Shown: positions 39,485 through 57,456 of the stretch, one piece after another | How the letters are laid out: each line of letters opens with the position of its first letter | Position numbering within the stretch: position 1 is the first letter of the stretch | Origin: a virus | DNA: 64,000 bases | IMG/VR virus record: IMGVR_UViG_3300031857_000111 | Location: 1 to 64,000 of that record | Direction: 5' to 3' (one strand) | Notes under the pieces: generated by a model | Told to the model about the DNA's origin: nothing | Database searches by the model: none | What the model saw: the letters and a program-made list of their open reading frames with translations, nothing else | Program-made: the position numbers and the translations under genes

Positions 39485-39792
39485 ATTTCAAAATCTCCTA
39501 TCGTGCTTGAAGCATTGGTTAACTTCTCCCGGCAGCGGTCGCACATTCGGTTGTGCGGCCCGTCACTCTCAAATGGGGTAGTGCAAGTAATGCACTTGCG
39601 AACGGCTTTGGGCAGAACAGCAAGCCCAAAGCCATCATCATCCCACTTGTTCTGGACCTTATCTACTTCCTTACCAAGCGCCTTGGCAATAGCAGAAATA
39701 GAAAAACCTACGCGCTTCCATTCACGAGCCTGTGATAGATCGCGCTCAGTCCAGAACCCCACGTCGGGCGGCGGCTTCTTATGCCGCGCCAT
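39481..39792 (-). CDS. GcrA-like HTH / zinc-ribbon regulator
   Basis: 103 residues. WTERDLSQAREWKRVGFSIS followed by AIAKALGKEVDKV (residues 14-46) looks like the GcrA-type HTH. The C-terminal CITC...FESDGPHNRMCDRC (residues 66-88) is a zinc ribbon seen in alphaproteobacterial regulators. GcrA works with sigma70 at CcrM-methylated promoters. If homologous, it may steer host transcription to the phage. The match is partial. Confidence 0.5.
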   Translation of the reverse strand: MARHKKPPPDVGFWTERDLSQAREWKRVGFSISAIAKALGKEVDKVQNKWDDDGFGLAVLPKAVRKCITCTTPFESDGPHNRMCDRCREKLTNASSTIGDFEI

Positions 39793-39798
39793 TAAAAG

Positions 39799-40623: not shown

Positions 40624-40695
40624 ACAAATACTCCAAAGGTGTCAGGAGGAAGTGAACGTAGATAGATGTATCACTCGGTTGGGGTGGTTTTCAAC

Positions 40696-41304
40696 TTAGG
40701 GGCGTAGGGCGCCAATCTCCAATACCAACTTCTTGCGAATCGCTCGCATCCAATCAGACCAACTATTAGCCTCAACCACAAAACCGTCGCTTGTGACAAG
40801 GTAATCGCGTGCCCATTGCGCCGGATCGTCATGCCCTGCTTGAGTCATAACGGTTACAGCATTAATCGTAACACCAAGTTCATGCGCGCGGTCGCGCATA
40901 TGTTCGGGGCGTTCACCAAAATTGCTTTGCCCGTCTGTCGCCACGTCGATAATCACGCGCTCACAACCTAGGCGTTCGGTGTCCGCTTCAATAGTCCGCA
41001 GCACGAGGTCAATAGCATCCCCGGTTGCCGTCCATTGCGGAACGCGGTCGCGCTCTACTGCGGAAACGAGATTTGCCGCCGCAGCGATATCGCGTTGTGA
41101 ACGTAGCACTGTCCAATCAATCTCGGCTCGTGGCTGATCCTCGATCACCACGAGGCGAATAGCAAGCCCTTCTGTAGCGGCTTGGTTGACCACAGAGGGC
41201 TCGCTAAGGGCTGCGGCGTGCGCCTCGGCCATACGCTTAAAAACTTCGGGAGGGACGCTACCGCTACCGTCAAGCAAAAGGGCGAGGCACACGCCGATAG
41301 ACAT
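40696..41304 (-). CDS. DUF1194 von Willebrand A-domain protein
   Basis: 202 residues. LALLLDGSGSV near 7-17 is the MIDAS D-x-S-x-S, and DVATDGQSNF holds the second metal-site Asp. DUF1194 proteins are mostly alphaproteobacterial secreted vWA proteins, but no signal peptide is visible here. vWA domains mediate metal-dependent protein contacts. Linked to the GapR gene by TAATG. Confidence 0.75.
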   Translation of the reverse strand: MSIGVCLALLLDGSGSVPPEVFKRMAEAHAAALSEPSVVNQAATEGLAIRLVVIEDQPRAEIDWTVLRSQRDIAAAANLVSAVERDRVPQWTATGDAIDLVLRTIEADTERLGCERVIIDVATDGQSNFGERPEHMRDRAHELGVTINAVTVMTQAGHDDPAQWARDYLVTSDGFVVEANSWSDWMRAIRKKLVLEIGALRP

Positions 41305-41573
41305 TACAGGATACCCACGGCCTGAAGGTAAAGATCGCGAAGGGCGCGCTGCTCTTCGCGGTCAGCCTCGTCCATAGCGCGCTCCTTGATGACCTGTCGG
41401 ATCACCTTGGGATCAAAGCCCGCACCTTTGGCTTCAGCGAAAATATCGCTGATGTCGCTAGACAGCGCCTTCTTCTCTTCATTGAGACGTTCAATACGCT
41501 CGATGATGGACATGAGGCGGTCGGCGGCAATACCGCCGACTTCGGCAGCAGAGTTATGGCCGATGGTGGACAT
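41304..41573 (-). CDS. gapR: GapR-family (DUF2312) DNA-binding protein
   Basis: ATG 41573 gives MSTIGHNSAAEVGG, the common opening of this family, then ADRLMSIIERIERLNEEKKA and DIFAEAKGAGFDPKVIRQVI. At 89 residues it is the normal length. In Caulobacter GapR encircles overtwisted DNA and helps replication and transcription. A phage copy may manage supercoiling during replication or compete with the host protein. It strongly suggests an alphaproteobacterial host. Confidence 0.88.
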   Translation of the reverse strand: MSTIGHNSAAEVGGIAADRLMSIIERIERLNEEKKALSSDISDIFAEAKGAGFDPKVIRQVIKERAMDEADREEQRALRDLYLQAVGIL

Positions 41574-41595
41574 TACACAGTCTCCTTGTTGGTGG

Positions 41596-41718
41596 TTAAT
41601 AAAGAAAAAGCAAAACGAGGCCAAGCCAAGCATATCCGCCAGCGCCGAGATACAAGGCGCCTAGGATAAGCACAACGGTCAAAGTCGCGATAGCGACGTT
41701 AGAGAGGTTATTTGGCAT
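41596..41718 (-). CDS. 40-residue membrane micropeptide
   Basis: ATG 41718 overlaps the preceding stop as ATGA. The product MPNNLSNVAIATLTVVLILG continues with ALYLGAGGYAWLGLVLLFLY, two short hydrophobic stretches split by Gly-rich turns. It fills the gap between two tightly packed genes, so it is likely translated. It could be a small holin-like or membrane-modulating peptide. Below usual gene-caller length limits. Confidence 0.55.
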   Translation of the reverse strand: MPNNLSNVAIATLTVVLILGALYLGAGGYAWLGLVLLFLY

Positions 41719-41912
41719 CAATCATCCTTTTCTTCGTGTGGGTCAGGCAAACCTGCCGCCTGCCGAATTGCGCGGGCGCAAGAGGCGCAAGCAAATCGTT
41801 CGGCAAAGCTGCTCATGGGTTGGCCAGCGGCGTAGCGCGGATCACGGAAAATTTTAATCTGCTTTTCGCAGATACGCGCGGCTTGTTCAAAAATCTGTTG
41901 CTCGGGGGTCAT
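41718..41912 (-). CDS. Hypothetical protein, 64 aa
   Basis: ATG 41912 overlaps the previous stop as ATGA. The product MTPEQQIFEQAARICEKQIK has a CASC pair and a charged tail (PDPHEEKDD). It may bind a metal through its Cys residues, but only three or four are present. Function unknown. Confidence 0.5.
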   Translation of the reverse strand: MTPEQQIFEQAARICEKQIKIFRDPRYAAGQPMSSFAERFACASCARAIRQAAGLPDPHEEKDD

Positions 41913-42334
41913 TAAAACGATTCCCCCAAATGGGGGTGGCTTTGATCGGACTCGTTTTGTAGGTGTCCAATACAAAGATCAATGTAGCGGGCAATCCTAG
42001 GCGCGCGGGTAGGCAACTCTGAGAGTCCGGTGCCAAGACCGTCTTCGGGGATCACTACGTCCTTGCCGAAAAGCAGCCACGCCTCGCAAACCCAAAATGG
42101 ATATTCGATGGCGTCCAGCACCTTCTCCCAATCACTATCCGAGAAAAACGCCTTGTCGCCCATATGCGGGGACCACTTGGTAGGCACCCCGAGTGCGTTG
42201 GGCTCGCCGCGCATTTCGGCGGCTTGCCCACCAAAACCGCTGCGCTGCATGTTATCCCCGAACAGGTAGATGGTGTTGGGGAAGTTGTCTCGCACGTCCT
42301 TGCGAGTGATAAACTTCTGTCGGATGAGAGGCAT
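41912..42334 (-). CDS. DUF7831-like phage protein
   Basis: AAAGGAA sets the ATG at 42334, giving 140 residues (MPLIRQKFITRKDVRDNFPN). The segment IYLFGDNMQRSGFGGQAAEM then EPNALGVPTKWSP defines a widespread conserved phage and bacterial family of unknown function. Trp, Asp and Gly conservation suggests a binding pocket. The name is from memory of the family pattern. Confidence 0.55.
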   Translation of the reverse strand: MPLIRQKFITRKDVRDNFPNTIYLFGDNMQRSGFGGQAAEMRGEPNALGVPTKWSPHMGDKAFFSDSDWEKVLDAIEYPFWVCEAWLLFGKDVVIPEDGLGTGLSELPTRAPRIARYIDLCIGHLQNESDQSHPHLGESF

Positions 42335-42394
42335 AAGGTTCCTTTCGTGTTGGTGGTGTGGGGCCTTGGTATAGGACCGATGGGGGTGTGTCAA

Positions 42395-44431
42395 CTACTT
42401 TTTATAGCGGAAATTGCGCCAGCCTTCTGCCTTAATAGGGAGGCCGGGAGCCCACTTAGGCACTCGGGCTACGATACGTTCAAACTCCTCGACGCTACCC
42501 AGGTGCGCGAGGATTTCCGCGATAAGTTCATCATGCACCGTCAGAAGAACGTCGTAGCCGTATTCTTCAGCGCGGAACATGGCTTCAACCATTACGTCCC
42601 GCGCTACCGCTTGGGTCGCATTCTCGGCAAGAATACCTGGGGTAAGAGTAGCATCTTCCCACTTGCGCGTAAGGGTGTTTTGCGCCTTGATTACTACGCT
42701 ATCTTTTTGCTCGCCCCAAGGGGTTGTTGTTCGCTCGATACGGGCGTTTGGGTAATTAAGGACGCGCCCCGATGGCAGCCGCATACGCAAATTGCCGTCG
42801 CGCATCTTAAACTTTAGATGACCTAGTGTAATCGTGGAATTAGGATTACGAACGGCGCGGATCGCTGCTTTCTCGATGTTCCACCAGAACGACGAGATTT
42901 TGGAGTAGGTAGAGCGATAGAGTTTAACGATGCGTGCCGCCTCTTCGTCAGAGACAACGATATTTTCTTTCGTGCAAGACACCTTAAACTTACTTGCACC
43001 CATCTGAAAGCCTAGGCCGAGAACACATAATTTCCCTAGCTGTCTAGCTTTTGGATCAACTTTCTTATCAATCTTGCGACCGTAAATCTTAGAAGCAAAA
43101 TCGACATAAATATCTGCTTCATTAATGAAGCCCTCAAGCAAGTCATTCTGCCCCGCCAACCAAGCGAGAACGCGAACCTCGATTTGCGAGAAGTCTGCGG
43201 CGTAAAGCACTTTGCCTTCCGCCGCTGTGACCATACTACGAATTGTATCGGCAACGATGACGAAGGGTGGGCCGAATACCAAGTCGATTTCATCGTCATC
43301 CCCTTTAAGAATATACGGAATAACGTCTTCGGGTTCGATATAGATAGGAGCCTTTGGATTGCCTAAGATTTCTGGCTTCGGGAGGTTCTGCAACTGCACG
43401 CCACGTCCCGAGAACCGTCCCGTGGTCGCACCGTGATAAAGCAGGTTGCCGTGGATGCGCCCGTGCTCATCCGCTTGCTCAAGTATCTTTTTCAGCTTGG
43501 CCGTGCTTGACTTGCCACCAACCTGACGGGCGTAAAGGACTTGGCGCACGTCATGGGGCAAGTCCTTCATCGCCAATTCTGCGGCGACGTTCTGCTTGTC
43601 CAATGACAGCATCGTAATGCCGCGACTAGCGCACCACTCAATAATCTTGTCGCGCTGGTTAAGCGACGTTACCGCACCTTTGGTGATGCGGGCAACCTGC
43701 TTCTCTAATTTGGCGGATGCCTTCTCGATGATCTTGATAGCTGCCTTGACCGCCTTGAGGTCAACGCTAATGCCACGATCATTGATACGCTGGTCAAGCA
43801 GGTATACCTCGCGCTCTTCAGGCGAGAGAGGATAAAGGTGCTTCTCGGCAAGGCGTTCTGTCTCTACATCGTTGATGCAGTATGCGTAAAGACCTTCAAG
43901 CCGCTCATTGAATTTGGCGACTTGCTTATCCTTGGTTTCTTGCTTCTTGCCCGTAATTTCAAGCGTGTCCCACCACCTAACGCCATCTTCGTCAACGGCG
44001 CGGGGCTTGGACATTTTGAGCATAAGGCGGCTGCCCGCCATGTCCTTCTGGATAGGCAGCTTCAGGGCAGCCCCGAGCCCGTCCAGTGACCTAGGGAGGG
44101 CCATAGCGGCTGCCATAGCCGCCGTGCAATACCATTGCTCTAGCGCCACCGGAGGACAGCCGTAGCGGGGTGTGGTGATGTATTGGGTAATCAGCCGTTC
44201 AAACTGCGCGTTGTGTGCGTAGATCGGGTAACCGTTCTTGATGTGCTCCGCGATTTCTTGCGGAAAAGGAAAGTCGGGCGTCCAAAGCCGAACAGGATCA
44301 TCTCCGAAGGCATAGGCCATACAGAGAATGTCTGTCGTCGGGCTTTGGGCATAGCGATAGGCCCCGCACTTGGTAAGGTCAACTGCGGATTTGGTTTCGT
44401 AGTCTAGGTGGAGGATTGGCGTGTCAGTCAT
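42395..44431 (-). CDS. Family A DNA polymerase with 3'-5' exonuclease
   Basis: ATG 44431 with GGAG upstream is favoured over 44446, giving 678 residues. Exonuclease motif I is LDYETKS (about 9-15), with further exo motifs YAHNAQFE and YCINDVE. Polymerase motif A is ADFSQIEVRVLAWLAG, motif B RQLGKLCVLGLGFQMG and motif C LTVHDELIAE. There is no 5'-3' exonuclease domain. It should be the replicative polymerase. A terminator lies between it and the DUF2815 gene upstream. Confidence 0.95.
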   Translation of the reverse strand: MTDTPILHLDYETKSAVDLTKCGAYRYAQSPTTDILCMAYAFGDDPVRLWTPDFPFPQEIAEHIKNGYPIYAHNAQFERLITQYITTPRYGCPPVALEQWYCTAAMAAAMALPRSLDGLGAALKLPIQKDMAGSRLMLKMSKPRAVDEDGVRWWDTLEITGKKQETKDKQVAKFNERLEGLYAYCINDVETERLAEKHLYPLSPEEREVYLLDQRINDRGISVDLKAVKAAIKIIEKASAKLEKQVARITKGAVTSLNQRDKIIEWCASRGITMLSLDKQNVAAELAMKDLPHDVRQVLYARQVGGKSSTAKLKKILEQADEHGRIHGNLLYHGATTGRFSGRGVQLQNLPKPEILGNPKAPIYIEPEDVIPYILKGDDDEIDLVFGPPFVIVADTIRSMVTAAEGKVLYAADFSQIEVRVLAWLAGQNDLLEGFINEADIYVDFASKIYGRKIDKKVDPKARQLGKLCVLGLGFQMGASKFKVSCTKENIVVSDEEAARIVKLYRSTYSKISSFWWNIEKAAIRAVRNPNSTITLGHLKFKMRDGNLRMRLPSGRVLNYPNARIERTTTPWGEQKDSVVIKAQNTLTRKWEDATLTPGILAENATQAVARDVMVEAMFRAEEYGYDVLLTVHDELIAEILAHLGSVEEFERIVARVPKWAPGLPIKAEGWRNFRYKK

Positions 44432-44445
44432 GTCGCTCCGATACA

Positions 44446-44483
44446 AAACAGAAAAGGGCGCGGCGCTCGTAGTCGCCGCGCCC
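44446..44483 (-). terminator. Terminator / attenuator between DUF2815 and polymerase genes
   Basis: On the minus strand GGGCGCGGCG pairs over 10 bp with CGCCGCGCCC (arms 44483-44474 and 44465-44456), followed by TTTTCTGTTTTG. It would lower polymerase expression relative to the binding protein. The T-run is interrupted, so partial readthrough is likely. Confidence 0.8.
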
Positions 44484-44517
44484 CCTACTTCTAACCCCTC
44501 ATAAACGGGACAAAAGG

Positions 44518-45093
44518 TTAGAAGATATCGCTCGCGTCGCCTTCGCTGACGTTCTTGCCGCCCGCGTCCTCAAAATCATCCTCGGCACGCGAAGCGCCGC
44601 CGCCAGAACCAAGGCGCTCGCCATCGTCAAGGAACTGGACGTTGTTGAGGCCGAACGAAACGCCACGGTTGCCGTTGTTATCGTAACCGTAGGCGTTAAG
44701 CGAGGCTCGCACATAACAGCCGGGATAAACCTTATCCTCGTCCGTAATCTGCGGGAAGGCGCCATTCACCTTGTTGCGGTCCACAACCTTCGGCTGCTTC
44801 TTCGCGGACACGGTAATGAACACGCAACCGTCGTCAAACCCGGCCACGTCTTCCTTCTCGGAAGCGTCGCGGAAAGGGTTACGCAGGTTCTTGGGCGGCT
44901 TGTCGCCAAACTTTGCTTTGAGGGCAGTCTTGGCGGCTTCCTTCATCTTGGCATACTCGGGCGTCGCCTGAGCTTCCTTGTCGAAAATCAGAACCGCCGA
45001 AAACTTCGGGGTCTGACCATTGAAGCCCCGTGCCTCAAACAGCGCCGGGAAAGCGAGTCGAGCCTTGGGGGTAGTCACCTTGGTTTCGCTCAT
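44518..45093 (-). CDS. DUF2815 single-strand DNA-binding-type protein
   Basis: From ATG 45093 the product is 191 residues (MSETKVTTPKARLAFPALFE). FSAVLIFDK, NPFRDASEKED and YPGCYVRASLNAYGYDN are typical of DUF2815, whose OB-like fold serves as phage ssDNA-binding protein. The acidic end DDFEDAGGKN...ASDIF matches SSB-type tails that recruit partners. Adjacent DUF2800 gene and polymerase support a replication role. Confidence 0.82.
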   Translation of the reverse strand: MSETKVTTPKARLAFPALFEARGFNGQTPKFSAVLIFDKEAQATPEYAKMKEAAKTALKAKFGDKPPKNLRNPFRDASEKEDVAGFDDGCVFITVSAKKQPKVVDRNKVNGAFPQITDEDKVYPGCYVRASLNAYGYDNNGNRGVSFGLNNVQFLDDGERLGSGGGASRAEDDFEDAGGKNVSEGDASDIF

Positions 45094-45127
45094 TGCGAAC
45101 AATCTCCATACGGAGCCGGGTTAACGC

Positions 45128-45182
45128 ATTCCCCCGCGAGAAGCGCCATAGCCCGGCCATAAGTATTAGGGTGCGGGGGAAT
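45128..45182. promoter_or_regulatory. 10-bp inverted repeat upstream of DUF2815 gene
   Basis: ATTCCCCCGC (45128-45137) and GCGGGGGAAT (45173-45182) are perfect complements around a 35-base loop, in the gap between DUF2800 stop and DUF2815 start. No T-run. It could be an mRNA structure or a protein-binding site. Confidence 0.4.
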
Positions 45183-45184
45183 CT

Positions 45185-46423
45185 TTATTCAAAATTGCGA
45201 TCTTGAAACCCATCGGCTTCAAGCGCGTCAATATCATCAAACTCATCGCCCGTCAACGACAAAACAACAGCCGGGCGCTTGTCAGACAAGGGCGCGATGG
45301 TGTTGCCAGTCGAGACAGCATTAATAAGCGGGGCGAGACGATCCTTGATCGCCTTCTTCTTACCCAACTTCTCTTCCGCCTGTGCCGGTGATAGCAACTT
45401 GCGGACGTAGATATCATCTTCATCCAGGCCCATCTGTTCAAGCAGGCCGACAGCTTGCTCTTCGTCGTTCCACTTCCGAGTTGCCCGTTTGGCGACCAAC
45501 TTAAAGCCTGGGATTACGCCACCGCTTTCAAGGCGGGAAGCGGCGTAAGCCTGCACCGAGTTGACCCACCCCTTAAACACATCTGCCTTCTTCAGAATGT
45601 CGGCAATCTGCGTATCGGTAAGTGTCTCGGGAGCGGGTGGGCTAAATCCGTCGTCAAACTCACTCTGCGCGGCTGCTAGGGCCTGTTGGTGCAAGAGAGG
45701 GCACTTGGCTTGGGCAGGGCAGAAACGGCACCAGTCGCCTTCCTGAAGCGGCGCGCTAGGGTCTAGCGTGCGATGAGCATAACCCATAAGGTCTTCAGCC
45801 CACTCGGAACGCAGCGTATAGGCGTCGATAGTGAAAGTGCGAACGGGACCATCGGCATGTCGGTATCGGGGCTGCACAATCACCATACGCACAACACGGG
45901 GTAGATAGCCGTGCTTCTCCATTTCTAGCATAGCGCCAAGGGCGTAGTAGGAAAGCTGCGGAGAGTTCTCCACCTTGACCGACACACCCGCGCCATACTT
46001 GAGGTCCATGACAGTAAGAACCTTGTCCTTGGCGTCCCAAACCACAGCGTCGGCGGTGCCAAACATCGGAACAGGCGGATTGAGCGGCGCAAGCGAAAAC
46101 CGTTGCTCGATAAATAGTTCATTGCCTTCGGCAGCTTCGTTTACCGCATCAACGTAAATCTGCACGGCTTCGGCCATATCTTCGTCAACCGTAAAACCTT
46201 CAATCTCTTCGTCAAGAAAGGAGATTGTGGGCTTCTTGGTAGCAAGACAGCGTTCGGCCAATTCGTGCGCCGCCGTGCCCTCGCGGGCGAAGTCGGAGGA
46301 AGTGTTAGGCATCCCCTCAGACATGCGGACGGAGCCGGGGCAGTTGATCCAGCGGCTTGCGCTACTCGCGCCCAAAGTAGCATGGGCGCGAGTGTTATGG
46401 GCGACGAGGGAAGTGTTAGTCAT
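45185..46423 (-). CDS. DUF2800 PD-(D/E)XK-type nuclease
   Basis: 412 residues. ASSASRWINCPGSVRM near the N-terminus, FGTADAVVWD and VMDLKYGAG form the Asp and D-x-K core. WCRFCPAQAKCPLL holds a Cys cluster as in RecB/Cas4-like iron-sulfur nucleases. DUF2800 genes regularly accompany DUF2815 genes and probably act in recombination or end processing. Coupled by an 8-base overlap to the gene upstream. Confidence 0.82.
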   Translation of the reverse strand: MTNTSLVAHNTRAHATLGASSASRWINCPGSVRMSEGMPNTSSDFAREGTAAHELAERCLATKKPTISFLDEEIEGFTVDEDMAEAVQIYVDAVNEAAEGNELFIEQRFSLAPLNPPVPMFGTADAVVWDAKDKVLTVMDLKYGAGVSVKVENSPQLSYYALGAMLEMEKHGYLPRVVRMVIVQPRYRHADGPVRTFTIDAYTLRSEWAEDLMGYAHRTLDPSAPLQEGDWCRFCPAQAKCPLLHQQALAAAQSEFDDGFSPPAPETLTDTQIADILKKADVFKGWVNSVQAYAASRLESGGVIPGFKLVAKRATRKWNDEEQAVGLLEQMGLDEDDIYVRKLLSPAQAEEKLGKKKAIKDRLAPLINAVSTGNTIAPLSDKRPAVVLSLTGDEFDDIDALEADGFQDRNFE

Positions 46424-47018
46424 TAAACGAAATCACATACTTGTGGAGTTCTTCCACGCCGCAATCGGAAATGCGAACGCGCCCCGTCACTTCCTTGATG
46501 CGCTCACGCGCGGCATCAACACCGCCATCGCTCATGTGCTTGCTGGCGAGTTGCAGCGCGCGCTCCTTCGCAGCGCCGGGATTTGCCTTAAACCACTCAA
46601 GCGAATCGGTGTCTTCGGGAGCGGGCGGGCCTTCCTCTTCGGGCTCAGGCTCAGGCGCGCTCTCGATGACTTCCTCGACGGGAAGGACGGCTTCGGGCTC
46701 AACGGCGGGCGGCGCTTCAACCTCTTCGGCGTTCTTGCGCGGACGACCACGCTTCTTCTTTTCACCATCGGCAGCCGTGCTTGCGGGCGTAAGAAGAGCA
46801 TCTGCCTTCTCGGCAAGCGCGACATTGTTTTCCGAAACGCGATCAACCGCTTCGTTAAACGCCGTAGTGAACTCAGGCGAAAGGGTCGAAAGACCTTCCG
46901 TTCCAACAAGTTCCTCTGACCATCCGCTATCCAGCTTATCAATGGCGTCTAGCGCCATAAGCCGGATATTCTCAGCGGCGTTAAGAACGATCTCAACGAT
47001 TGCGGTATTGCGATCCAT
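46416..47018 (-). CDS. Hypothetical protein with AT-hook and acidic linker
   Basis: 200 residues. Helical N-domain (1-75), an AT-hook-like KKKRGRPRKN near 87-96, then a Pro/Glu-rich linker (PEPEPEEEGPPAP), then a C-terminal domain (SLEWFKANPGAAKERALQLA...). AT-hooks bind the minor groove of AT-rich DNA. It lies between a helicase and a nuclease gene, so a DNA-linked role is plausible. Confidence 0.55.
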   Translation of the reverse strand: MDRNTAIVEIVLNAAENIRLMALDAIDKLDSGWSEELVGTEGLSTLSPEFTTAFNEAVDRVSENNVALAEKADALLTPASTAADGEKKKRGRPRKNAEEVEAPPAVEPEAVLPVEEVIESAPEPEPEEEGPPAPEDTDSLEWFKANPGAAKERALQLASKHMSDGGVDAARERIKEVTGRVRISDCGVEELHKYVISFND

Positions 47019-47027
47019 GTTTGTCTC

Positions 47028-49490
47028 CTAAATCATAATCTGCGAAATAGACTCAGTTTTGCGTTTGATAACGCGGGTGATATCCTCGTCAATGCTACCC
47101 GCCAAGGTAATGAACCTAGCGAGCACAGAGTCGCTCTTTTGCCCCATCCGGTGCGCCCTGGCCGCAGCCTGGACGTTCTCGGCAGGTATCCAAGACGGCT
47201 CCATGATTAGCACATTGCTTGAGGCTGTCAAGGTAATTGCTGAGTTGGCGGCGGTAATTTGGCCGATAAAAATGAGCGTGTCTTCGTCGTTTTGGAAGTC
47301 ATCAATCGCCTTCTGCCGCTGCGGCTTGCTCGTGTCTCCCGTCACCACAACAGGCTTATACGCCTTGAGGGCTTCCGCGAGTTGGGCGATGACTTCCTTG
47401 TGATAGGCGAATAGGATGATCTTGCCTTGGTTGGTTGCCTCCATTTCACTTTCGATAAACTCTACAACGGGGGCGACCTTCGCCAACCCCACAATGCGGC
47501 GCATGGTGGCGAGGGCAGTTGCGTTGTTTTGGGACAGTAGCGTGTCCGCGAGCAAAGCATCCTTCTCAAAATGCTTTGCCGAAGCTGCCGCAAGCACCGC
47601 CTGGATTTGCTTAACCTTCGGGTCTTTCTCAGCATCCTTGATTTGCTTGGCGGCACCTTTGGGGGGTTCAAGCACCACCGTTCCCCATTGCAGAGGCGGC
47701 AGTTCGGTCAGCACGTCTTCCTTGCGGCGTCGAATATACCACCCCTTCAAGCGTTCCTTTAATTCAGGGATATTCTTGTTACCCCGGATACGCTCAACCG
47801 TTCGCATACCGAAGTGCATAACGTCCACTTGGCAGAACCGATGGATGAATTGAGCATAGGTGAGGCGCCCGTTTTCTGTTTCAAGCCGCTTGGGCGCAAG
47901 GGCTCTTAAGTGGGTATAGAACTCCCCGGAGTTGTTGGGATTGGGGGTGCCGGTGAGCAAGATAACGCTGTTGACGTTAGAGATAATTCCACCTTGACCG
48001 TTAAGCCGTTCGCCGTAAAGTGCTTTTGTCCGCAGAGCCGTTCGGTTCTTAAAACAATGCGCTTCATCAACAATAAGCAAGTCAAACTCGGGGGCGTTAA
48101 GGATTGCTTCCTTAACGTGCTTGTTAGAGAGCATGTCGTGACTAACAATCACCACGTCGGCGGTATTGGGGATTGGCGACTTGATGGTTTGCTGGACATG
48201 GATCGTGCGGGACAGAAGGCCAAATGTCTCAAACTCGCGCGACCAGTTGATGCGGGCGATGGCGGGACAAGCGACAAGGATGCGGTGGAAACTAAGCCTG
48301 TCGCCTGTGCGAATAGCCTGAATTGTGTTGTGCGTAACAATGTAGTCGTCAGTAACATACAACCTATCATCGGCGCTTACGCTAATACACACCGCTTCTT
48401 CTTCTCCACATGGTATAATCTCGGATATGTATTTCCGAGGCTTATACTTTGTGTTTGCCCTAAACTTCTTGCTTTTGCGACTAACAAAAAATGGGTTATA
48501 CCCCTCTGGCATATTTAGCGTGGTGCAGTAGTGATTCTTTCCGGACGCGCTAATCTTTTGACTTTGGCGGGTTGTGCCACCCAAAGACCGAACAATCTCT
48601 ACCACCCCATCGACAAGGGCTTTAGAATTAGACGTGAACTGCATAGTCGGTTCATCGTTGATATATCCATCCGTGTCCATTAGACCCCTAAGTAAATCGA
48701 GCCGCTGGCGAACGGAACCGCGCAAGTATATCTCGGGGATAAATTTATCGTCCGAACCTTTGCCGCGAAGCCCGAGTTGCCTAATAGCATGAGTCAAATG
48801 CCCTCCTTTTGAACTATTTCGATATGTAAAATAATAGGTTGTTGCTTTGCTACTCTCTCGATGATGCTCTCGGTAAAAAACACCGCAAGTGTTCCTCCTT
48901 TTGACTTCTTCGATGATTTCGGAATCCATAGTTGTAATGCCGGTGCCGCCATACTTGATGCTTCCGTCCCCGAGAATTACACCGAGAACGTAAGGGTCAA
49001 TCGGCAAGGGTTTTTCCGTGAACAGGATAGGTTTCACTTGTGGCACAAAATACTTCGGCGCCCCAACGTATTCTACTGACTTAAATCGAATGTCGTCAGA
49101 AATCTCGGAAAGGCCCATAACAAAGAAACCATTTCCACGGGCGTGTCTTACCTGCGTATTAACCAGCCACAAGTGTTCCGCGCAGCATTTAGTCTCTGTT
49201 TTATCGTTAAAAACAACACGATAAATTGGTTTCTTCCCTTGAGGAAAAACACCAGTGACTTGCGTCAATTCTCCGTTTTGACCAAAGATATAATCCCCGA
49301 CTTTCAGGCTACCTATATTAACCCACCCCCCGTCCGTCAAAACTTTGCTATCGAGCGGCTGTGCTTTCCCAAGCCCCGGCTCGTCAAAATTGGCGGGGTG
49401 GTTTTCAAGAGTGATTTGTTGGGAGAGAAAGTCCACGCCTTCGATTTGGTAGGTGCGGAGTCCTTTTTGCCAATCAACCGTTTTGTTCAT
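47028..49490 (-). CDS. SNF2/DEAD-type helicase, intein-containing
   Basis: 820 residues, 474 after splicing. N-extein ends DEPGLGK and the C-extein continues TIQAIRT, restoring the P-loop GLGKT. Later motifs are ILVACP (Ia), LLIVDEAHCFKN (II), VILLTGTPNPN (III) and, in the C-domain, GDTSKPQRQKAI, ITAANSAITLTASSNVLIME and AAARAHRMGQK (VI). This is the compact SNF2-like helicase common in phage replication modules next to DUF2800/DUF2815. The start overlaps the methylase end by 17 bases. Confidence 0.93.
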   Translation of the reverse strand: MNKTVDWQKGLRTYQIEGVDFLSQQITLENHPANFDEPGLGKAQPLDSKVLTDGGWVNIGSLKVGDYIFGQNGELTQVTGVFPQGKKPIYRVVFNDKTETKCCAEHLWLVNTQVRHARGNGFFVMGLSEISDDIRFKSVEYVGAPKYFVPQVKPILFTEKPLPIDPYVLGVILGDGSIKYGGTGITTMDSEIIEEVKRRNTCGVFYREHHRESSKATTYYFTYRNSSKGGHLTHAIRQLGLRGKGSDDKFIPEIYLRGSVRQRLDLLRGLMDTDGYINDEPTMQFTSNSKALVDGVVEIVRSLGGTTRQSQKISASGKNHYCTTLNMPEGYNPFFVSRKSKKFRANTKYKPRKYISEIIPCGEEEAVCISVSADDRLYVTDDYIVTHNTIQAIRTGDRLSFHRILVACPAIARINWSREFETFGLLSRTIHVQQTIKSPIPNTADVVIVSHDMLSNKHVKEAILNAPEFDLLIVDEAHCFKNRTALRTKALYGERLNGQGGIISNVNSVILLTGTPNPNNSGEFYTHLRALAPKRLETENGRLTYAQFIHRFCQVDVMHFGMRTVERIRGNKNIPELKERLKGWYIRRRKEDVLTELPPLQWGTVVLEPPKGAAKQIKDAEKDPKVKQIQAVLAAASAKHFEKDALLADTLLSQNNATALATMRRIVGLAKVAPVVEFIESEMEATNQGKIILFAYHKEVIAQLAEALKAYKPVVVTGDTSKPQRQKAIDDFQNDEDTLIFIGQITAANSAITLTASSNVLIMEPSWIPAENVQAAARAHRMGQKSDSVLARFITLAGSIDEDITRVIKRKTESISQIMI
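48327..49364 (-). mobile_element. Class 3-type LAGLIDADG intein in the helicase P-loop
   Basis: 346 residues replacing nothing between Lys and Thr of Walker A. Residue 1 is Ala, not Cys or Ser. Trp in AEHLWLV (block B, protein residue 108), Cys in AVCISVS (block F, residue 368) and +1 Thr (389) match the W-C-T triad of class 3 inteins. The C-terminus is IVTHN. LAGLIDADG motifs are YVLGVILGDGSI (167-178) and LLRGLMDTDGYI (266-277). AT-richer than the exteins. Confidence 0.9.
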
Positions 49491-50178
49491 ACAGCACTTC
49501 CATACTCACGCCACTACGACCCGACCCGTGTGTGGCTTTCTGCGCTAAAAAAGGCTTAAAATCCAACCAATCGGCGCCTTCGTTTTCACACACCAGCACT
49601 TGCCCGTTCCTAGATTTACACCACTCTCCAAGATGTTGGAAATCTATATTTGTTGAAGAGCATCGGTAGTCTTTACCCGCCTTTTGGTAAGGTGGATCGA
49701 CAAACCACGTTGCGTTGTGGAACGAACATACATCGACATATGGTCTGTGGTAACATTTCCAGTGGCGTATCCCTTCAACTTGAGACGCAATGCGGTTACG
49801 GATTACTTCTCCCCAAAAACTGTTAGTGTGGGTGCCTTTTCGCATCCACGCGGACGGCGTTTTACATGGTTGGGCAGCACCCTTATTAAGCCAAAACCCG
49901 ATCAACCACTTTGCCTCTTGCGGGACTTTGAGAGCATCTACCCCTTCTGACACATCAAGGGGTAGGTTACTAATCTCGGGGGCAGGAGTCCTAATAAGGT
50001 AATCCCACACCCCGATAACTTTTTCGTCTAAATCATACAAGAACACGTTGCGCGCGCTGTGTCTGACGGAGTACCCCGCACTCCCCGCGAATGGTTCTAC
50101 GATGATATTGTGGCCGGGCAAAGGGTATCTTGGCGCAGAGCGCCACTTACCTCCGAAATATGTAAAAAACGGTTTCAT
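49474..50178 (-). CDS. D12-class DNA adenine methylase, Dam-like
   Basis: 234 residues. TYFGGKWRSAPRYP is the N-terminal G-G-K motif, IIVEPFAGSAGYS the SAM motif and TWFVDPPYQKAG the DPPY catalytic motif, giving the alpha class order of Dam-type N6-adenine methylases. It may protect phage DNA from restriction or alter gene control. Overlaps RuvC (ATGA) and the helicase (17 bases). No partner endonuclease is adjacent. Confidence 0.85.
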   Translation of the reverse strand: MKPFFTYFGGKWRSAPRYPLPGHNIIVEPFAGSAGYSVRHSARNVFLYDLDEKVIGVWDYLIRTPAPEISNLPLDVSEGVDALKVPQEAKWLIGFWLNKGAAQPCKTPSAWMRKGTHTNSFWGEVIRNRIASQVEGIRHWKCYHRPYVDVCSFHNATWFVDPPYQKAGKDYRCSSTNIDFQHLGEWCKSRNGQVLVCENEGADWLDFKPFLAQKATHGSGRSGVSMEVLYEQNG

Positions 50179-50648
50179 CGAGTCGCCCCATACAACGCAA
50201 TCAAGGCTGCCTCCGCGCGACCATCATCCTTAACCCGCTTAAACGAGTCTGCCCATTCAGGAAAGCGCGCCATAGCGGCTAGACGCGCCCCACCCTTGTC
50301 AGCGGGGACGCCCATCGCCTTCTTCCATGTCGCGGGGTGAACAGTCGTGAGAGGCAGGTCAAGACCAGCCGCAATGCCGTGGATGATACCGACGCCAAAG
50401 CCAAAACTGAAGGCCCCCACAGCGCCCTCGCTTGGCCTTGGGCCTACGTTCTCAACGATGATGTGCGAGGCAGGATGGGTTTTGAGTAGATTAACAAGAA
50501 GGGCGGGCGCGATCTTGCGCCTTTCCTTCTTGTTGATCGTGACCGTGACTGTAGGCATGTCGAAAATGTTTAGGATTTTTTGGGTTTCTTGGTTTAGGAA
50601 AACGATGGCGCCGGATAGGCCGGGGTCAATGCCGATGATGTGGGTCAT
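50175..50648 (-). CDS. RuvC-like Holliday junction resolvase
   Basis: 157 residues. IIGIDPGLSGAIVFL carries the first catalytic Asp, HIIVENVG the Glu, and KDDGRAEAALIALYG the terminal Asp pair, the RNase H-fold layout of RuvC. It processes branched DNA before packaging. ATGA overlaps on both sides. Confidence 0.88.
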   Translation of the reverse strand: MTHIIGIDPGLSGAIVFLNQETQKILNIFDMPTVTVTINKKERRKIAPALLVNLLKTHPASHIIVENVGPRPSEGAVGAFSFGFGVGIIHGIAAGLDLPLTTVHPATWKKAMGVPADKGGARLAAMARFPEWADSFKRVKDDGRAEAALIALYGATR

Positions 50649-51469
50649 TCTGAGGGTGTGTCCTTTTTAGGAGGCGGGTTTTTAGGAATCCAATCGTTGG
50701 GGTGTTTGTCGCCTTTAGAGCAATTACAGGACGCGCACAAGAGTTGAATGTTATGGGGTTCGTTTGAACCTCCTAATTTAAGGGGAAGTATGTGGTCGAT
50801 ATGGTATGTTACTTCTTTCAAGTCCGCGCTACAACCTAGGCACAAATGGTCTTGCTCTTGCAACATGCGAAATATGTCTTCCGAGCAGAATTTACCTTTA
50901 GCGTTGCGTTTCCGAGCACGATACGAAGCGTTTAATGCACGTTTAGCCTCTGGTTTATCTTTTCGGTATTGTTTGGCCCTGCGTGAAATCGCTTCTCGGT
51001 GCCTTTCGTATAGACGCCTATTTTGCTCCCTAAAAAGAGAAGGAAAATCTTTACGCCTTTGTCGCTCTCGTTCAAGGATACTTTCTTTTTTCTCATTATA
51101 TCTTCTGGATGACTTTTGCATAATGTGTTCTCTATTACGAAGGTAATACTCTGCTTTCTTTGCTTTCAGCACATCTGAGTTTTCTTTATGGTATCGGCGT
51201 TTGTCGGCCAAAACTCTTTCTTTATTAGCGTTTGCATATTCACGAACGCGGGCACAAATTTGATCTCTGTTTTTTGCGTATCCTTGTGCCGCGCGTTCAC
51301 TTGAGCATTGCGCGCAAAAGTTTGATTTGACATACCTGTCAGAAAGGTGGCCGTGCGAGCACGGGTGTCCGTTAAAAAACCGAACGTCCCCGTCCTCACG
51401 CGCTTGTTCCCTCGTTTTAACGACCTCGCACGTCAAATAGTTTTTAGGTTTTTGGCTAGAAGGCGTCAT
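50645..51469 (-). CDS. Free-standing HNH endonuclease
   Basis: Preferred start ATG 51469 (MTPSSQKPKNYLTCEVVKTR), 14 bases inside the nrdB end; the frame remains open to 51556. A Cys-containing N-domain (C...HGH and CAQC) precedes a long run of Arg/Lys/Tyr-rich repeats of the type Y-x-x-N/R-R-E, then the HNH domain: CLGC, YHIDHILPLKLGGSNEPHNI, CASCNCSKGD. The AT-richer base composition and position inside a compact operon suggest a homing endonuclease gene. Confidence 0.82.
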   Translation of the reverse strand: MTPSSQKPKNYLTCEVVKTREQAREDGDVRFFNGHPCSHGHLSDRYVKSNFCAQCSSERAAQGYAKNRDQICARVREYANANKERVLADKRRYHKENSDVLKAKKAEYYLRNREHIMQKSSRRYNEKKESILERERQRRKDFPSLFREQNRRLYERHREAISRRAKQYRKDKPEAKRALNASYRARKRNAKGKFCSEDIFRMLQEQDHLCLGCSADLKEVTYHIDHILPLKLGGSNEPHNIQLLCASCNCSKGDKHPNDWIPKNPPPKKDTPSE

Positions 51470-52415
51470 TCCAATTACCACGAGTCGCGGCGCGAGAATA
51501 CTCGGTAGCGCGCGTCTCAAAAAACGATTCGTGTGCGACGTTATTAAGCAACTCATCCAACCACGGAAGGGGGTTCTTCTTTACGCCATAGATAGGCGCG
51601 AACCCAAGTTGAAGCAAGCGACGATCCGCGATGTAGCGAACGTATGCTTTAATTTCTTCTGCCGTGAGGCCCTGCACTGGACCCATTTCAAACGCAAGGT
51701 CGATAAACGCATCCTCGTGTTCAACGGTAGTGCGGCAAATCTCGATGATCTCTTGACGAAGCGAATCATCAAGAAGGCCGGGGTTTTCCTCACAAAGCGT
51801 GTGGAACAGTCGGATCATAGACAAGCAATGGAGCGTTTCATCGCGGACAGACCAAGCGATAATCTGCCCGACCCCCTTCATCTTTCCGAACCGCTGAAAG
51901 CTAATCAAGATCGAAAAGCTACTAAAGAGCGCCAACCCCTCGGTAAAAGCGCCAAACGCGGCGAGCGTTTTAGCAATTTCGCGAGTATCGTTGGCGTTGA
52001 ATGATTTGAAGAAATCCGCTTTTGCACGCATTTCAGCGTATTGAAGGAAGGCCGTGTATTCAGTTTCCGGCATCCCCAAAGTGTCGATTAGGTGGCTATA
52101 ACTATGAACGTGGTTGGCTTCGCTTGCCGTAAACGCGGCCAGCATCATGCAAATCTCGACGGGGCGGAATACCGGCATGTAGTGGAGCATGTAGTTAGAC
52201 GCCACTTCAATGTCACCTTGCGTAAAGAACCGCAAAATCTGAGTGAGAAGGTTCTTTTCGGCAGGCGTGAGGTTCTTCTGCCAATCCTTCACGTCATCAG
52301 CCATCGGCACTTCTTCAGGCAACCAATGGATGCGCTGCTGTTGCTGATAAGCCTCAAAAGCCCATTCGTAACGAAAAGGCTTGTACCCCACAGAGGGTGT
52401 CATCAAATTGCTCAT
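51456..52415 (-). CDS. nrdB: Ribonucleotide reductase beta subunit
   Basis: 319 residues. Diiron ligands are visible in ASEANHVHSYSHLI (E..H), FASFGAFTEG-like LAAFGAFTEGLALF and VRDETLHCLSMI (E..H). The protein generates the tyrosyl (or related) radical for the alpha subunit. The C-terminus is EYSRAATRGNWNDAF. It is separated from nrdA by three small genes. An HNH gene abuts its 3' end. Confidence 0.93.
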   Translation of the reverse strand: MSNLMTPSVGYKPFRYEWAFEAYQQQQRIHWLPEEVPMADDVKDWQKNLTPAEKNLLTQILRFFTQGDIEVASNYMLHYMPVFRPVEICMMLAAFTASEANHVHSYSHLIDTLGMPETEYTAFLQYAEMRAKADFFKSFNANDTREIAKTLAAFGAFTEGLALFSSFSILISFQRFGKMKGVGQIIAWSVRDETLHCLSMIRLFHTLCEENPGLLDDSLRQEIIEICRTTVEHEDAFIDLAFEMGPVQGLTAEEIKAYVRYIADRRLLQLGFAPIYGVKKNPLPWLDELLNNVAHESFFETRATEYSRAATRGNWNDAF

Positions 52416-52418
52416 AGG

Positions 52419-52523
52419 TTAATCCTTCCACCCATCGAGGTTTGCGAAGGCCATGCCAATCGCGATAAGGACGGCGATAGCACCGCCCCAAGAGACGAGG
52501 GTAAAGAGAGTATCAACGGACAT
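52419..52523 (-). CDS. 34-residue membrane micropeptide before nrdB
   Basis: ATG 52523 overlaps the preceding stop (TAATG). The product MSVDTLFTLVSWGGAIAVLI continues AIGMAFANLDGWKD: a single transmembrane segment with a short charged tail. It ends three bases before the nrdB start. Tight coupling on both sides favours a real gene. Function unknown. Confidence 0.55.
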   Translation of the reverse strand: MSVDTLFTLVSWGGAIAVLIAIGMAFANLDGWKD

Positions 52524-52807
52524 TACCAAACGCCTTTCATCTGTTCGATGCCGCGCGCATATCCTGTTTCGCGCCCAGAGTTAAATCCTTCTGACTGCCC
52601 AAGACGGCGACCTTCGTTAAAGCCGCGCTGAAATCCTGCAACGTCGCCTTCTTCATACTTTAGGTCAGCAAGCCGAGTAATGAATCGCGCCAAAAGTCGT
52701 GCCTTGAGCGGATGCGCGTCGGGGTAAAAATTACTAACTAGGTTAGTTACTTGCTGCTGTTCGTCCGCAGTAAGGTGAGAAAATTCGTCAGTCATCGTGG
52801 CGTTCAT
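52523..52807 (-). CDS. Hypothetical protein with Gly-rich repeated helix
   Basis: ATG 52807 with GGGAG upstream; 94 residues. The C-terminal half repeats an x-G-x-x-x-G pattern (GFQRGFNEGRRLGQSEGFNS), similar to the end of the next gene upstream. Lies in the nrd operon. Function unknown. Confidence 0.55.
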   Translation of the reverse strand: MNATMTDEFSHLTADEQQQVTNLVSNFYPDAHPLKARLLARFITRLADLKYEEGDVAGFQRGFNEGRRLGQSEGFNSGRETGYARGIEQMKGVW

Positions 52808-53051
52808 AGTTGATCTCCCTTTCCTTGTCTGCACGACCTGCTTGATAGCCTTCTTCGTAAACCGTATCCCACTTCAGTTGGCCCAATTCGCCTTCAAAGC
52901 CCTCCATGTAAGCATCTTCGCATTCACGGGCCAAAAGATTGCCAATCTCAACCGCGAGGCTGGCGCGCTCGTCCATATTGAGTTTGTAAGTCTCCCGAAT
53001 AATTAGCATCTCAATTTCAGCCAAGTCAGGTTTGTAATTGTAGCGACCCAT
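52788..53051 (-). CDS. Hypothetical protein in nrd operon
   Basis: ATG 53051 (MGRYNYKPDLAEIEMLIIRE) is supported by AAAGGAG; the ATG at 53069 lies within that ribosome site and the nrdA stop. 87 residues ending in EGYQAGRADKEREINYERHD. Acidic and helical. Function unknown. Confidence 0.55.
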   Translation of the reverse strand: MGRYNYKPDLAEIEMLIIRETYKLNMDERASLAVEIGNLLARECEDAYMEGFEGELGQLKWDTVYEEGYQAGRADKEREINYERHDD

Positions 53052-53068
53052 AAACGTTCTCCTTTCCA

Positions 53069-54898
53069 TTACTGACAAGCAAGGCATTCGTCATACTTCT
53101 TCTCGCCTGCCCCGTCAACAGGCTTCTGCGCGATCTTCTCGCTAACAGTCTCGGCACGCTGCACGGACAGGCTACGGCAGTAGTAGAGGCCCTTTACACC
53201 CTTCTTCCATGCCATCATGTGAACCGCGTTAATGTCCTTCTTATGGGCATCTGCCGCGAAGAACAAATTGAGGCTTTGGCCCTGGTCGATAAAGGGCGTG
53301 CGGTCGGCAGCGTGCTCAATCAACCAACGCTGATCCAACTCAATCGCGGTCTTGAACACGTCACGCTCTTGGTCAGTCAGGAAGTCAAGGTGCTGCACGC
53401 TACCTTTGCGCGCCCCAATGTCCACCCACGTCTCTTGGTCGTCCCGGCCATACTTGGCAAGCACGGCCTTAAGGTGAGGGTTGCGCACAACATGGCTGCC
53501 TGAGAGGGTCTTCTGGACGTAGCTGTTAGCCGCAGAAGGCTCAATGCCGGGGCTCGCACCACCGCAGATAATGGAGATAGACGCGGTAGGGGCTACAGCC
53601 GTCTTGTTGGCGAACCGCTCCATAATGCCAGCGTCAGCCGCGTCGGGGCACGGCCCCTTCTCGTGAGCAAGGGCAACGCTTGCCTCGTCTACCTTGGCCT
53701 TGATGTGCTTGAACATCTTGAGGTTCCACGACTTCGCAATGGCGCTCTCAAAAGGCACACCCATCTTCTGAAGGAAGCTATGGAAGCCCATGACGCCAAG
53801 ACCCACGCTGCGCTCACGCATGGCGCTGTAGCGGGCGCGCGACATGCTGTCGGGGGCGCGGTCGATAAAGTCCTGCATCACGTTATCAAGGAAGCGCATA
53901 ACGTCTTCAATGAACGTGGGGTGCAGCGACCAATCAAGGAAATAGTCGAGGTTAAGGGACGAGAGGCAGCACACGTTAGTCCGGTGATTGCCAAATTGAT
54001 CCGTTCCTGTAACGAGAGTCACTTCGCAGCACAAGTTACTGGTTTTGACTTCAAGATTGTTCTTCTTATACGTCTCGGGCGCAAGATTGTTAACCGTGTC
54101 AATGAACAGAATATACGGCTCGCCAGTCTCAATACGCGCGGTAAGCAACTTGATCCAAAGGTCACGCGCGCTCACGCTCTTCTGCACAGACCCATCGCGC
54201 GGGCTGACAAGGTTCCACCCCTGATCGTTCTCAACAGCACGCATGAAGGCGTCTGTAACCACAACCCCGTGGTGCAGATTGAGGCTGCGGCGATTGGGGT
54301 CGCCACCAGTCGGGCGGCGCATGTCGATAAATTCTTCGATTTCAGGGTGGTCAATACGAAGATAAGTCGCCGCGCTACCACGACGAAGATTCCCCTGCGC
54401 CACCGCAAGGGTTTGGCTGTCCATCATCTTAACAAACGGCATGATGCCGCTGGTTTCACCAACAAGGCCCACCTTCTCCCCGATACTGCGGACATTAGAC
54501 CAGTCGGTGCCGATGCCGCCGCCACGAGCGGCAAGCCAGAAATTCTCGCGGAAAGTAGCGTCAATCCCCTCAAGTGAATCAGGAACCTCGTTCAAATAAC
54601 AACTGATGGGCAGCCCGCGCGTCGTCCCGCCATTCGCCAACACAGGCGTAGCAGGCATGAACCAAAGCAGGCTCATATATGTATAAAGCCGCTGCGCGTG
54701 ATCGGCGTTGTCGGCATAGGCGCACGCAACACGCGCGAAAAGGTCTTGGTAGGATTCACCCGGCAACAGGTAGCGGTCCTTTAGGGTTTCCTTGCCAAAA
54801 TGCGTCAGAAGTTCATCGCGGCTGCGGTCAATGGTGATAGCAAAACGCAGAGCGGCGCAAGCAGGCGCGGACGCGCCAGCATCGGTGTTGGAAAGCAT
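53069..54898 (-). CDS. nrdA: Ribonucleotide reductase alpha subunit
   Basis: 609 residues. FMPATPVLANGGTTRGLPISCYL holds an active-site Cys, SNLCCEVTL the second, and PSASISIICGGASPGIEP the conserved loop. The C-terminus YDECLACQ carries the CxxC that is re-reduced by thioredoxin or glutaredoxin. No ATP-cone is visible at the short N-terminus, so allosteric activity control is probably missing. It reduces NDPs to dNDPs. A promoter is present upstream. Confidence 0.93.
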   Translation of the reverse strand: MLSNTDAGASAPACAALRFAITIDRSRDELLTHFGKETLKDRYLLPGESYQDLFARVACAYADNADHAQRLYTYMSLLWFMPATPVLANGGTTRGLPISCYLNEVPDSLEGIDATFRENFWLAARGGGIGTDWSNVRSIGEKVGLVGETSGIMPFVKMMDSQTLAVAQGNLRRGSAATYLRIDHPEIEEFIDMRRPTGGDPNRRSLNLHHGVVVTDAFMRAVENDQGWNLVSPRDGSVQKSVSARDLWIKLLTARIETGEPYILFIDTVNNLAPETYKKNNLEVKTSNLCCEVTLVTGTDQFGNHRTNVCCLSSLNLDYFLDWSLHPTFIEDVMRFLDNVMQDFIDRAPDSMSRARYSAMRERSVGLGVMGFHSFLQKMGVPFESAIAKSWNLKMFKHIKAKVDEASVALAHEKGPCPDAADAGIMERFANKTAVAPTASISIICGGASPGIEPSAANSYVQKTLSGSHVVRNPHLKAVLAKYGRDDQETWVDIGARKGSVQHLDFLTDQERDVFKTAIELDQRWLIEHAADRTPFIDQGQSLNLFFAADAHKKDINAVHMMAWKKGVKGLYYCRSLSVQRAETVSEKIAQKPVDGAGEKKYDECLACQ

Positions 54899-54942
54899 TT
54901 TTGGTGGTTCCTAGAAAGGGGTGGAGAAGTTGCGGGTCGGCG

Positions 54943-54971
54943 GTTATATATTAGAGCGGCATGGTGAGCAA
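54943..54971 (-). promoter_or_regulatory. Candidate nrd operon promoter
   Basis: TTGCTC (54971-54966) and TATAAC (54948-54943) are exactly 17 bases apart on the minus strand, in the 88-base gap before nrdA. An AT-rich ATATATAAC gives a strong -10. Confidence 0.55.
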
Positions 54972-54986
54972 GGGCTTGACAGCGAT

Positions 54987-55304
54987 TTAGTCATAGTCCG
55001 TGGGGTCATTGCGTAGCGGACCTTTACGCATGTCATAAGCGTGATCTCTTGTAATACGAAAGCATTCGCTTTCGCTCACGATATGGTCGGGGAAAAAACT
55101 TTTAGCGTAATATCCCGACTCGTGCCACCCACAATCCGCACACACGAAGTAAGGCGGCATATTGCCCATATGCTTCATGGGCATGTATGGAGCAACGCAA
55201 ATGTCTTCGTGCTTGCACGTCGCTTGGACTTCGGCAACTGCTTGGTCTAGCGCGGCTTGAGCGGCCTTGAGGCGATTAACTGCTTTTTCTATTTTCTTGT
55301 GCAT
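54987..55304 (-). CDS. Hypothetical protein with possible zinc site
   Basis: 105 residues. A coiled-coil N-terminus (HKKIEKAVNRLKAAQAALDQ) is followed by TCKHED and FVCADCGWHE, a C-x-H and C-x-x-C-x-x-H arrangement that could bind zinc. Function unknown. Confidence 0.55.
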   Translation of the reverse strand: MHKKIEKAVNRLKAAQAALDQAVAEVQATCKHEDICVAPYMPMKHMGNMPPYFVCADCGWHESGYYAKSFFPDHIVSESECFRITRDHAYDMRKGPLRNDPTDYD

Positions 55305-55313
55305 GTGTTTTCC

Positions 55314-55643
55314 TTAAATCGGATCGACGCTCTTACTCACCTTACCAAGCGACGACTGATACCTTTCATACCCTTCAATCGCACCTTGCATAAATCGCAC
55401 GGTATCTCGTTCAATAGGCGCACCCATTTCATGCAGATTGAGACAAGTTTTATACGTCTCAATCGTCAACCGTGCTGCATCCGCAATGCCAGCCGTATAT
55501 GCGCCCGTAACGGCCTCGCGCAGATACAGGATTTCCCGATACAGGGCTGCAATATCGTCCTTGGGGATAAGGACAATATGCGGGCCTTGTTCCGCGAGGG
55601 CGGCGTATTCTTCAAGTTTGTCGTTTGAAAGCATGTTAATCAT
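55314..55643 (-). CDS. Hypothetical helical protein, 109 aa
   Basis: Starts MINMLSNDKLEEYAALAEQG; ATG 55634 is a possible alternative. It is helical, with AVTGAYTAGIADAARLTIET in the middle, which resembles a part of the next upstream gene (EAYIAGAIDSIKCLQEIARN). The two may be distant paralogues. Function unknown. Confidence 0.55.
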   Translation of the reverse strand: MINMLSNDKLEEYAALAEQGPHIVLIPKDDIAALYREILYLREAVTGAYTAGIADAARLTIETYKTCLNLHEMGAPIERDTVRFMQGAIEGYERYQSSLGKVSKSVDPI

Positions 55644-55939
55644 GCCTCATCCTCCTGCCCGTCAATCCCCTGCCGATACTTGGCAATAACGCCTTCAGCG
55701 GCTTGGCTGATAGCAATGGCGGCGCACAGCAAAGCGCGGCGTTGGGGTTCGTCAATCTCCTTAGAGTTGCGAGCGATTTCCTGCAAACACTTAATCGAGT
55801 CGATTGCGCCTGCGATGTAGGCTTCGTGAAAAACTTGGTTCATTTCGGCTGTGACCTCACTGATGATCGTAATTTGGTCAATCGGGCCGAGTTTGTGGAT
55901 GGGGTGGTTGGTAGGGAAGTCGCTGAGTGCGCTGTTCAA
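55640..55939 (-). CDS. Hypothetical helical protein, TTG start
   Basis: TTG 55939 with AGGAG upstream; 99 residues beginning MNSALSDFPTNHPIHKLGPI. ATGA overlap with the next gene. Helical with a conserved-looking YIAGAIDSIKCL. Function unknown. Confidence 0.55.
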   Translation of the reverse strand: MNSALSDFPTNHPIHKLGPIDQITIISEVTAEMNQVFHEAYIAGAIDSIKCLQEIARNSKEIDEPQRRALLCAAIAISQAAEGVIAKYRQGIDGQEDEA

Positions 55940-55951
55940 TGTCTGGTTCTC

Positions 55952-57436: not shown

Positions 57437-57456
57437 TGTGGGGTTCCTTTTCCATA

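Follow-up and report, generated by a model that had tools for sequence, protein, structure and literature searches.

A tailed-phage gene for an SNF2-family helicase is very probably interrupted by a full-length, mobile class 3 intein, inserted between the Lys and the Thr of the helicase Walker A motif. Judged from its anatomy, an empty site in a relative, its signature residues, its predicted fold and its base composition, the insert looks both functional and mobile. The window, i.e. the whole 64,000-nucleotide stretch that was analysed, belongs to a viral record of 71,521 bases (IMG/VR IMGVR_UViG_3300031857_000111), and since portal and tape-measure proteins are among the genes scanned in that record, the helicase gene is a tailed-phage gene. 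Its features, all on the minus strand, are as follows.

47028..49490 (-): SNF2-family helicase precursor, 820 aa (open reading frame and Pfam domains)
49365..49490 (-): N-extein, 42 aa, ending with Walker A ...DEPGLGK (translation, alignment)
48327..49364 (-): class 3 intein, 346 aa, with a Hint splicing domain and a LAGLIDADG endonuclease (sequence, alignment, model)
47028..48326 (-): C-extein including the stop codon, first residues TIQAI (translation)
codon 48324-48326 (-): Thr+1, which is the Walker A Thr (start of the C-extein)
49362..49364 (-): Ala1, the non-nucleophilic residue 1 of the intein (sequence)
49167..49187 (-): block B, CCAEHLW, with Cys60 (B:6), Cys61 (B:7), His64 (B:10) and Trp66 (B:12)
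48957..48995 (-): LAGLIDADG motif 1 (block C), PYVLGVILGDGSI, with Asp133 (alignment)
48660..48701 (-): LAGLIDADG motif 2 (block E), LDLLRGLMDTDGYI, with Asp232 (alignment)
48387..48389 (-): Cys326, block F:4, the predicted initiating nucleophile (alignment)
48327..48347 (-): block G, DYIVTHN, with Thr344 (G:5), His345 (G:6) and Asn346 (G:7)

The intein occupies residues 43-388 of the precursor (...FDEPGLGK / AQPLDS...DDYIVTHN / TIQAIR...), in which Pfam recognizes SNF2-rel_dom (8e-16), Helicase_C (2e-13) and, within the insert, LAGLIDADG_3 (1.7e-09). A first-pass annotation made from the letters alone had placed the insert at 48327-49364, which is exact to the base (first codon GCA, 49364-49362; last codon AAC, 48329-48327), and between the Lys and Thr of GLGK/T, which agrees with the translation and with an intein-free relative described below (L175). 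The residues that it had pointed out, Ala1, the HLW of block B (His64, Trp66), the AVCISV of block F (Cys326) and Thr+1, are all present.

Class 3 inteins carry a triad of Trp at B:12, Cys at F:4 and Thr at G:5, need no nucleophile at residue 1 and usually have Ser or Thr at +1 (PMC5222942; PMC3196547). In the window intein the triad is Trp66/Cys326/Thr344, in the company of Ala1, His64, His345, Asn346 and Thr+1. The class 3 assignment of the first-pass annotation is thus upheld by the sequence itself, by its alignment with class 3 inteins of known structure (sequence matches to 6bs8 and 6rix) and by structure prediction. Its Trp and Cys were the right residues, but it had taken Thr+1 for the third member of the triad, which is instead Thr344 in VTHN; Thr+1, also common among class 3 inteins, lies outside the triad. 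The LAGLIDADG endonuclease, the intein-free relative and the Snf2 intein of Deinococcus radiodurans do not figure in that annotation.

These residues were followed through an alignment of 171 rows consisting of the window intein and 170 relatives, namely 10 phage inteins hand-chosen from 775 phage records with a match, 80 from viral contigs (the best 80 of 590 loci) and 80 from genomes (the best 80 of 507). Likeness to the window intein decided the ranking of the viral and genome rows, and the highest identity to it of any aligned relative is 45% (L097). His64, Trp66, Cys326, Thr344, His345 and Asn346 are invariant throughout, so that B:12 is Trp and F:4 is Cys in 171/171 rows and Cys326 sits at the conserved position. 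The viral scan selected on endonuclease motifs rather than on signature residues, whereas the genome scan partly used a THN pattern, which makes its 80 rows circular for block G. With these discounted, Thr G:5 is found in 10/10 phage rows and 80/80 viral rows (best 80 of 590), and a signature kept to this extent is not due to chance. Residue 1 is less constrained: it is Ser or Cys in 14 of the 171 rows (starts were extrapolated where the match began later), meaning that this position, Ala in the window, is not fixed in the family. Two relatives, the Phrappuccino terminase intein (L012) and L056, combine the full class 3 signature with Cys+1, a combination recorded for one intein only as of 2016 in the account given by PMC5222942.

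Ala1 would equally suit a class 2 intein, whose members also do without a first-residue nucleophile and in which Thr+1 would attack the N-terminal junction directly, leaving Cys326 dispensable. We give this reading practically no credence, since class 2 as described consists of KlbA orthologues with Ser at G:6, in which Asp F:4 matters (PMC4031507), whereas the window intein lies in an SNF2 helicase and has His345 at G:6 and, like every aligned row, Cys at F:4.

The AlphaFold2 model of the window intein, built with 69 relatives, has a pLDDT of 94.1 and a pTM of 0.93. Its top match in VIA-align is PI-SceI, the class 1 intein of the yeast vacuolar ATPase (Z 27.4, 331/346 residues), followed by other endonuclease-bearing inteins, by the class 3 DnaB mini-inteins and by gp41-1. 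The predicted fold in this way confirms, at the level of a model, the Hint plus LAGLIDADG architecture. Among the class 3 structures, the M. smegmatis (Msm) DnaB intein 6bs8 superposes with Z 19.2 and an rmsd of 1.5 over 123 residues, and 6riy and 6rix score 18.9 and 18.8. The scores for gp41-1, 18.1-18.2, are so close to these that classes 3 and 1 cannot be told apart by the fold alone. One gp41-1 entry, 6riz, was considered as a sign that W-C-T is not class-specific; this was ruled out because the entry is, by its title, the engineered variant C1A/F65W/D107C. An attempt to convert gp41-1 to class 3 is reported to have failed (PMC12245125), and the W-C-T signature does not by itself guarantee splicing.

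By analogy with its homologues, the window intein would splice as follows. Cys326, aided by His64 and Thr344, would attack the Lys(-1)-Ala1 bond to form the block F branched intermediate, from which the N-extein would be transferred to Thr+1; Asn346, aided by His345, would then cyclize and free the intein, and an acyl shift would join the exteins and restore GLGKT. The Walker A Thr would on this scheme serve first as the splice nucleophile and then again in the ATP-binding loop. Since Thr+1 is the Walker A Thr, unspliced precursor should be without ATPase activity, and the first-pass view that ATP hydrolysis has to wait for splicing is reasonable as an expectation. A P-loop intein in RadA is described as disrupting ATPase function (PMC6195587).

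Proof that the segment is an insertion comes from L175, a viral contig (IMG/VR 3300037189_008376) recovered in a search with the joined extein. Its helicase is 97% identical to that of the window and runs uninterrupted across the site (...DEPGLGKTIQAI...), GGAAAG being followed directly by ACC, so that it lacks the insert exactly at the K/T point. The two extein genes differ at 149 of 471 codons, with 134 of these changes synonymous, which indicates strong constraint on the helicase (the comparison covers the extein only). A second contig, L002, shares 11,038 identical bases with the window and has the intein. When 20 loci from a helicase-profile search, including the contigs of L175 and L002, were judged by pattern, 17 had an uninterrupted Walker A, one (L178, the contig of L002) had an intein and two (L183 and L195) gave no pattern match. 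With both LAGLIDADG Asp residues, Asp133 and Asp232, intact in the window intein, homing into L175-like alleles is plausible: the endonuclease would cut intein-free alleles at the conserved site, for which the empty site of L175, around 2617, is the candidate target, and repair would copy the intein in.

The base composition fits such a history. The intein has a G+C content of 45.6% against 52.8% for the extein (47.1% against 63.1% at third positions), and only one of 630 sliding windows of intein length across the 64 kb is as low, consistent with arrival by transfer. A co-conversion footprint was looked for and rejected: junction codons 41-46 differ from L175 at five of six positions, yet 15 of 466 six-codon windows also reach five, and the 20-nt junction window has four differences, a count equally high in 295 of 1393 windows. 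Compared with L175 against all windows, there is accordingly no footprint beside the junction. A megablast search with positions 39000-58000 of the window found no nucleotide relative among named phages, and in the search for a second intein in the record profile A2 gave one real match, the other hit (6049-6147) having an E-value of 0.006 and 11 bits.

The neighbourhood of the helicase gene differs between the two phages in other respects. Upstream lies a gene (49474-50178, minus strand, G+C 49%) with weak likeness to D12-class methyltransferases, which has no counterpart in L175, where a RuvC-like match and the helicase match are 12 bases apart; it is a second difference between the window phage and the L175 phage adjoining the intein gene. 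Further upstream, an HNH endonuclease gene (50645-51556, minus strand, G+C 45%) overlaps the ribonucleotide reductase small-subunit gene at its end; the ORF that L175 carries at this position (1189-2022) is a different one, though it may be related.

The same K/T site is occupied in the SNF2 helicase of Mesorhizobium phage Cp1R7A-A1 (L013, 2522 onward) by an intein that keeps W, C and THN but has lost its LAGLIDADG motifs. Empty in L175, full in the window and decayed in the Mesorhizobium phage, the site thus exists in all three states in different phages. The decayed copy lends some colour to the idea that the window intein is itself splice-dead or decaying and is tolerated in a helicase that is dispensable. 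Precedent for a dead intein of this class also exists in PMC3196547, where Arsp-FB24, which phylogeny places in class 3, lacks Cys F:4 and is dead. Against this, the window intein has an open frame with all splicing residues and both endonuclease Asp residues intact, and its helicase is under the constraint noted above, so we hold decay to be very unlikely and a working, mobile class 3 intein to be much the better account.

The block B cysteines bear on another proposal, that the intein is kept for regulation and works as a redox-sensitive switch of splicing that delays the helicase, as claimed for Msm DnaBi1. In the latter, a class 3 intein inserted in a P-loop, Cys48 and Cys118 form a disulfide (PMC6195587). 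In the window intein, Cys60 and Cys61 are adjacent (49182-49187, minus strand), and these are the columns in which Cys is most frequent after F:4 (B:6 in 91/119 and B:7 in 60/119 non-redundant rows). Class 3 block B is described as DxxH (PMC12245125), with Asp in DnaBi1 (PMC6195587), while CxxH (60/119) outnumbers DxxH (30/119) in the non-redundant rows; the papers listed by a literature search for CxxH in inteins, three in all, deal with other subjects. The position of Msm Cys48, however, corresponds in the 6rix alignment to Ile47 of the window intein and is Cys in 1/119 rows, and a switch of the Msm type was rejected because this partner Cys is absent. According to the alignment, gp41-1 too has a Cys at B:6, a residue that may thus be structural. 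A regulatory role of this kind is very unlikely, if slightly less so than decay, and a redox function for the B:6 and B:7 cysteines is only a suggestion from their distribution. A mobile intein that splices by the class 3 route remains the preferred reading.

Related inteins are found well beyond SNF2 helicases. Under a loose pattern that asks for [GA]K ahead of the insertion and T or S behind it (it also takes in GK/T in DNA polymerase A of L067 and L081, not a Walker A), a Walker-A-like GK/T flanks the insertion in 9/10 phage rows, 67/80 viral rows (best 80 of 590) and 41/80 genome rows (best 80 of 507). The strict pattern GxxxxGK is met with in 2/10, 13/80 and 21/80 rows of the same samples, low counts that reflect variation of the first Gly in many helicase Walker A loops. 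Among the other 39 of these best 80 genome rows, 38 are bacterial PhoH-cluster inteins inserted at MRGR/T, outside Walker A (L109, L118 and 36 more), whose non-redundant members, 10 in number, make up a single starred clade on the tree. A Pfam scan of 39 selected precursors identified SNF2, RecG, UvrD-like, AAA_30, PhoH, DnaB, RecA, AAA_24, AAA_25, ClpB, terminase and other hosts, and several precursors gave no host-domain match.

Host families were mapped on a quick tree, made with no bootstrap, of 119 inteins (the 171 rows thinned at 72% identity), all with the signature and with no class 1 or class 2 outgroup. The host labels are single-linkage BLAST clusters, partly checked with Pfam, and for L101, labelled SF2, a methylase domain came up instead. 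On this tree 20 changes are needed for the label 'SF2', at least nine of them on starred branches. Clade 98* holds SF2 (4), AAA_30 (2), AAA_24 (1) and UvrD (1), clade 99* holds SF2 (3), PhoH (2), DnaB (1), ClpB (1) and another host (1), and the neighbour of the window intein is L028 (SF2, support 85). Host families are nonetheless clustered far more than shuffled labels, which makes within-family homing the commoner event. Taken together, the sequences suggest that Walker A GK/T serves as insertion site for related inteins in several families of NTPases and that these inteins have moved repeatedly from one family to another, which is the sole part of the analysis with some novelty. It is conceivable, but in our estimate rather less than an even bet, that LAGLIDADG class 3 inteins are one promiscuous pool, moved repeatedly among distantly related NTPases (SNF2, RecG, UvrD-/RecD-type helicases, PhoH, DnaB, RecA, AAA, ClpB), mostly at Walker A G-K/T codons, with the short motif common to these genes, and not their homology, as the target and the window intein as one product.

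Taken singly, the window intein matters little, since class 3 inteins, their association with phages, insertion at P-loop K/T and an Snf2 example are already in print. Paired with the 97%-identical intein-free allele of L175, it offers a clean natural pair for measuring splicing, cutting and homing, and with the surveyed NTPase sites it could be decided whether class 3 inteins home to Walker A itself.

Several known systems bracket the window intein. PI-SceI, the Sce VMA intein, shares its Hint domain and two-motif LAGLIDADG endonuclease but is longer (454 against 346 aa). Msm DnaBi1 and M. chimaera DnaB1 (6bs8, 6rix) have the same splicing fold, His/Trp/Cys/Thr active site and P-loop insertion, but they are mini-inteins without endonuclease, lie in DnaB and carry the Cys48 that is Ile47 in the window. 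PMC5222942 places the class 3 inteins of DnaB in M. smegmatis and M. leprae at GVGK/S. The mycobacteriophage TerL1-a intein, lying between the invariant P-loop Lys and Thr at what is called a 'classic' site (PMC5050341), is likewise phage-borne and at K/T, but its host is a terminase rather than an SNF2 helicase, and the likeness drawn here is one of site. A close parallel is the Snf2 intein of D. radiodurans (Dra), described as a class 3 intein that splices in a model precursor (PMC3196547; PMC11219805), for which PMC7664689 gives cloning primers and mentions a nested endonuclease. Translated here, these primers give junctions LGK/AQ and THN/TLQ, the junction motif of the window in the same SNF2 family. 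The Dra intein lies on a bacterial chromosome and its C-extein begins TLQ, whereas that of the phage-borne window intein begins TIQ, and the likeness is drawn from the primer-derived junctions only. With this junction match and the P-loop K/T precedents, the window intein is not a new kind of element but an ordinary further example of one already described.
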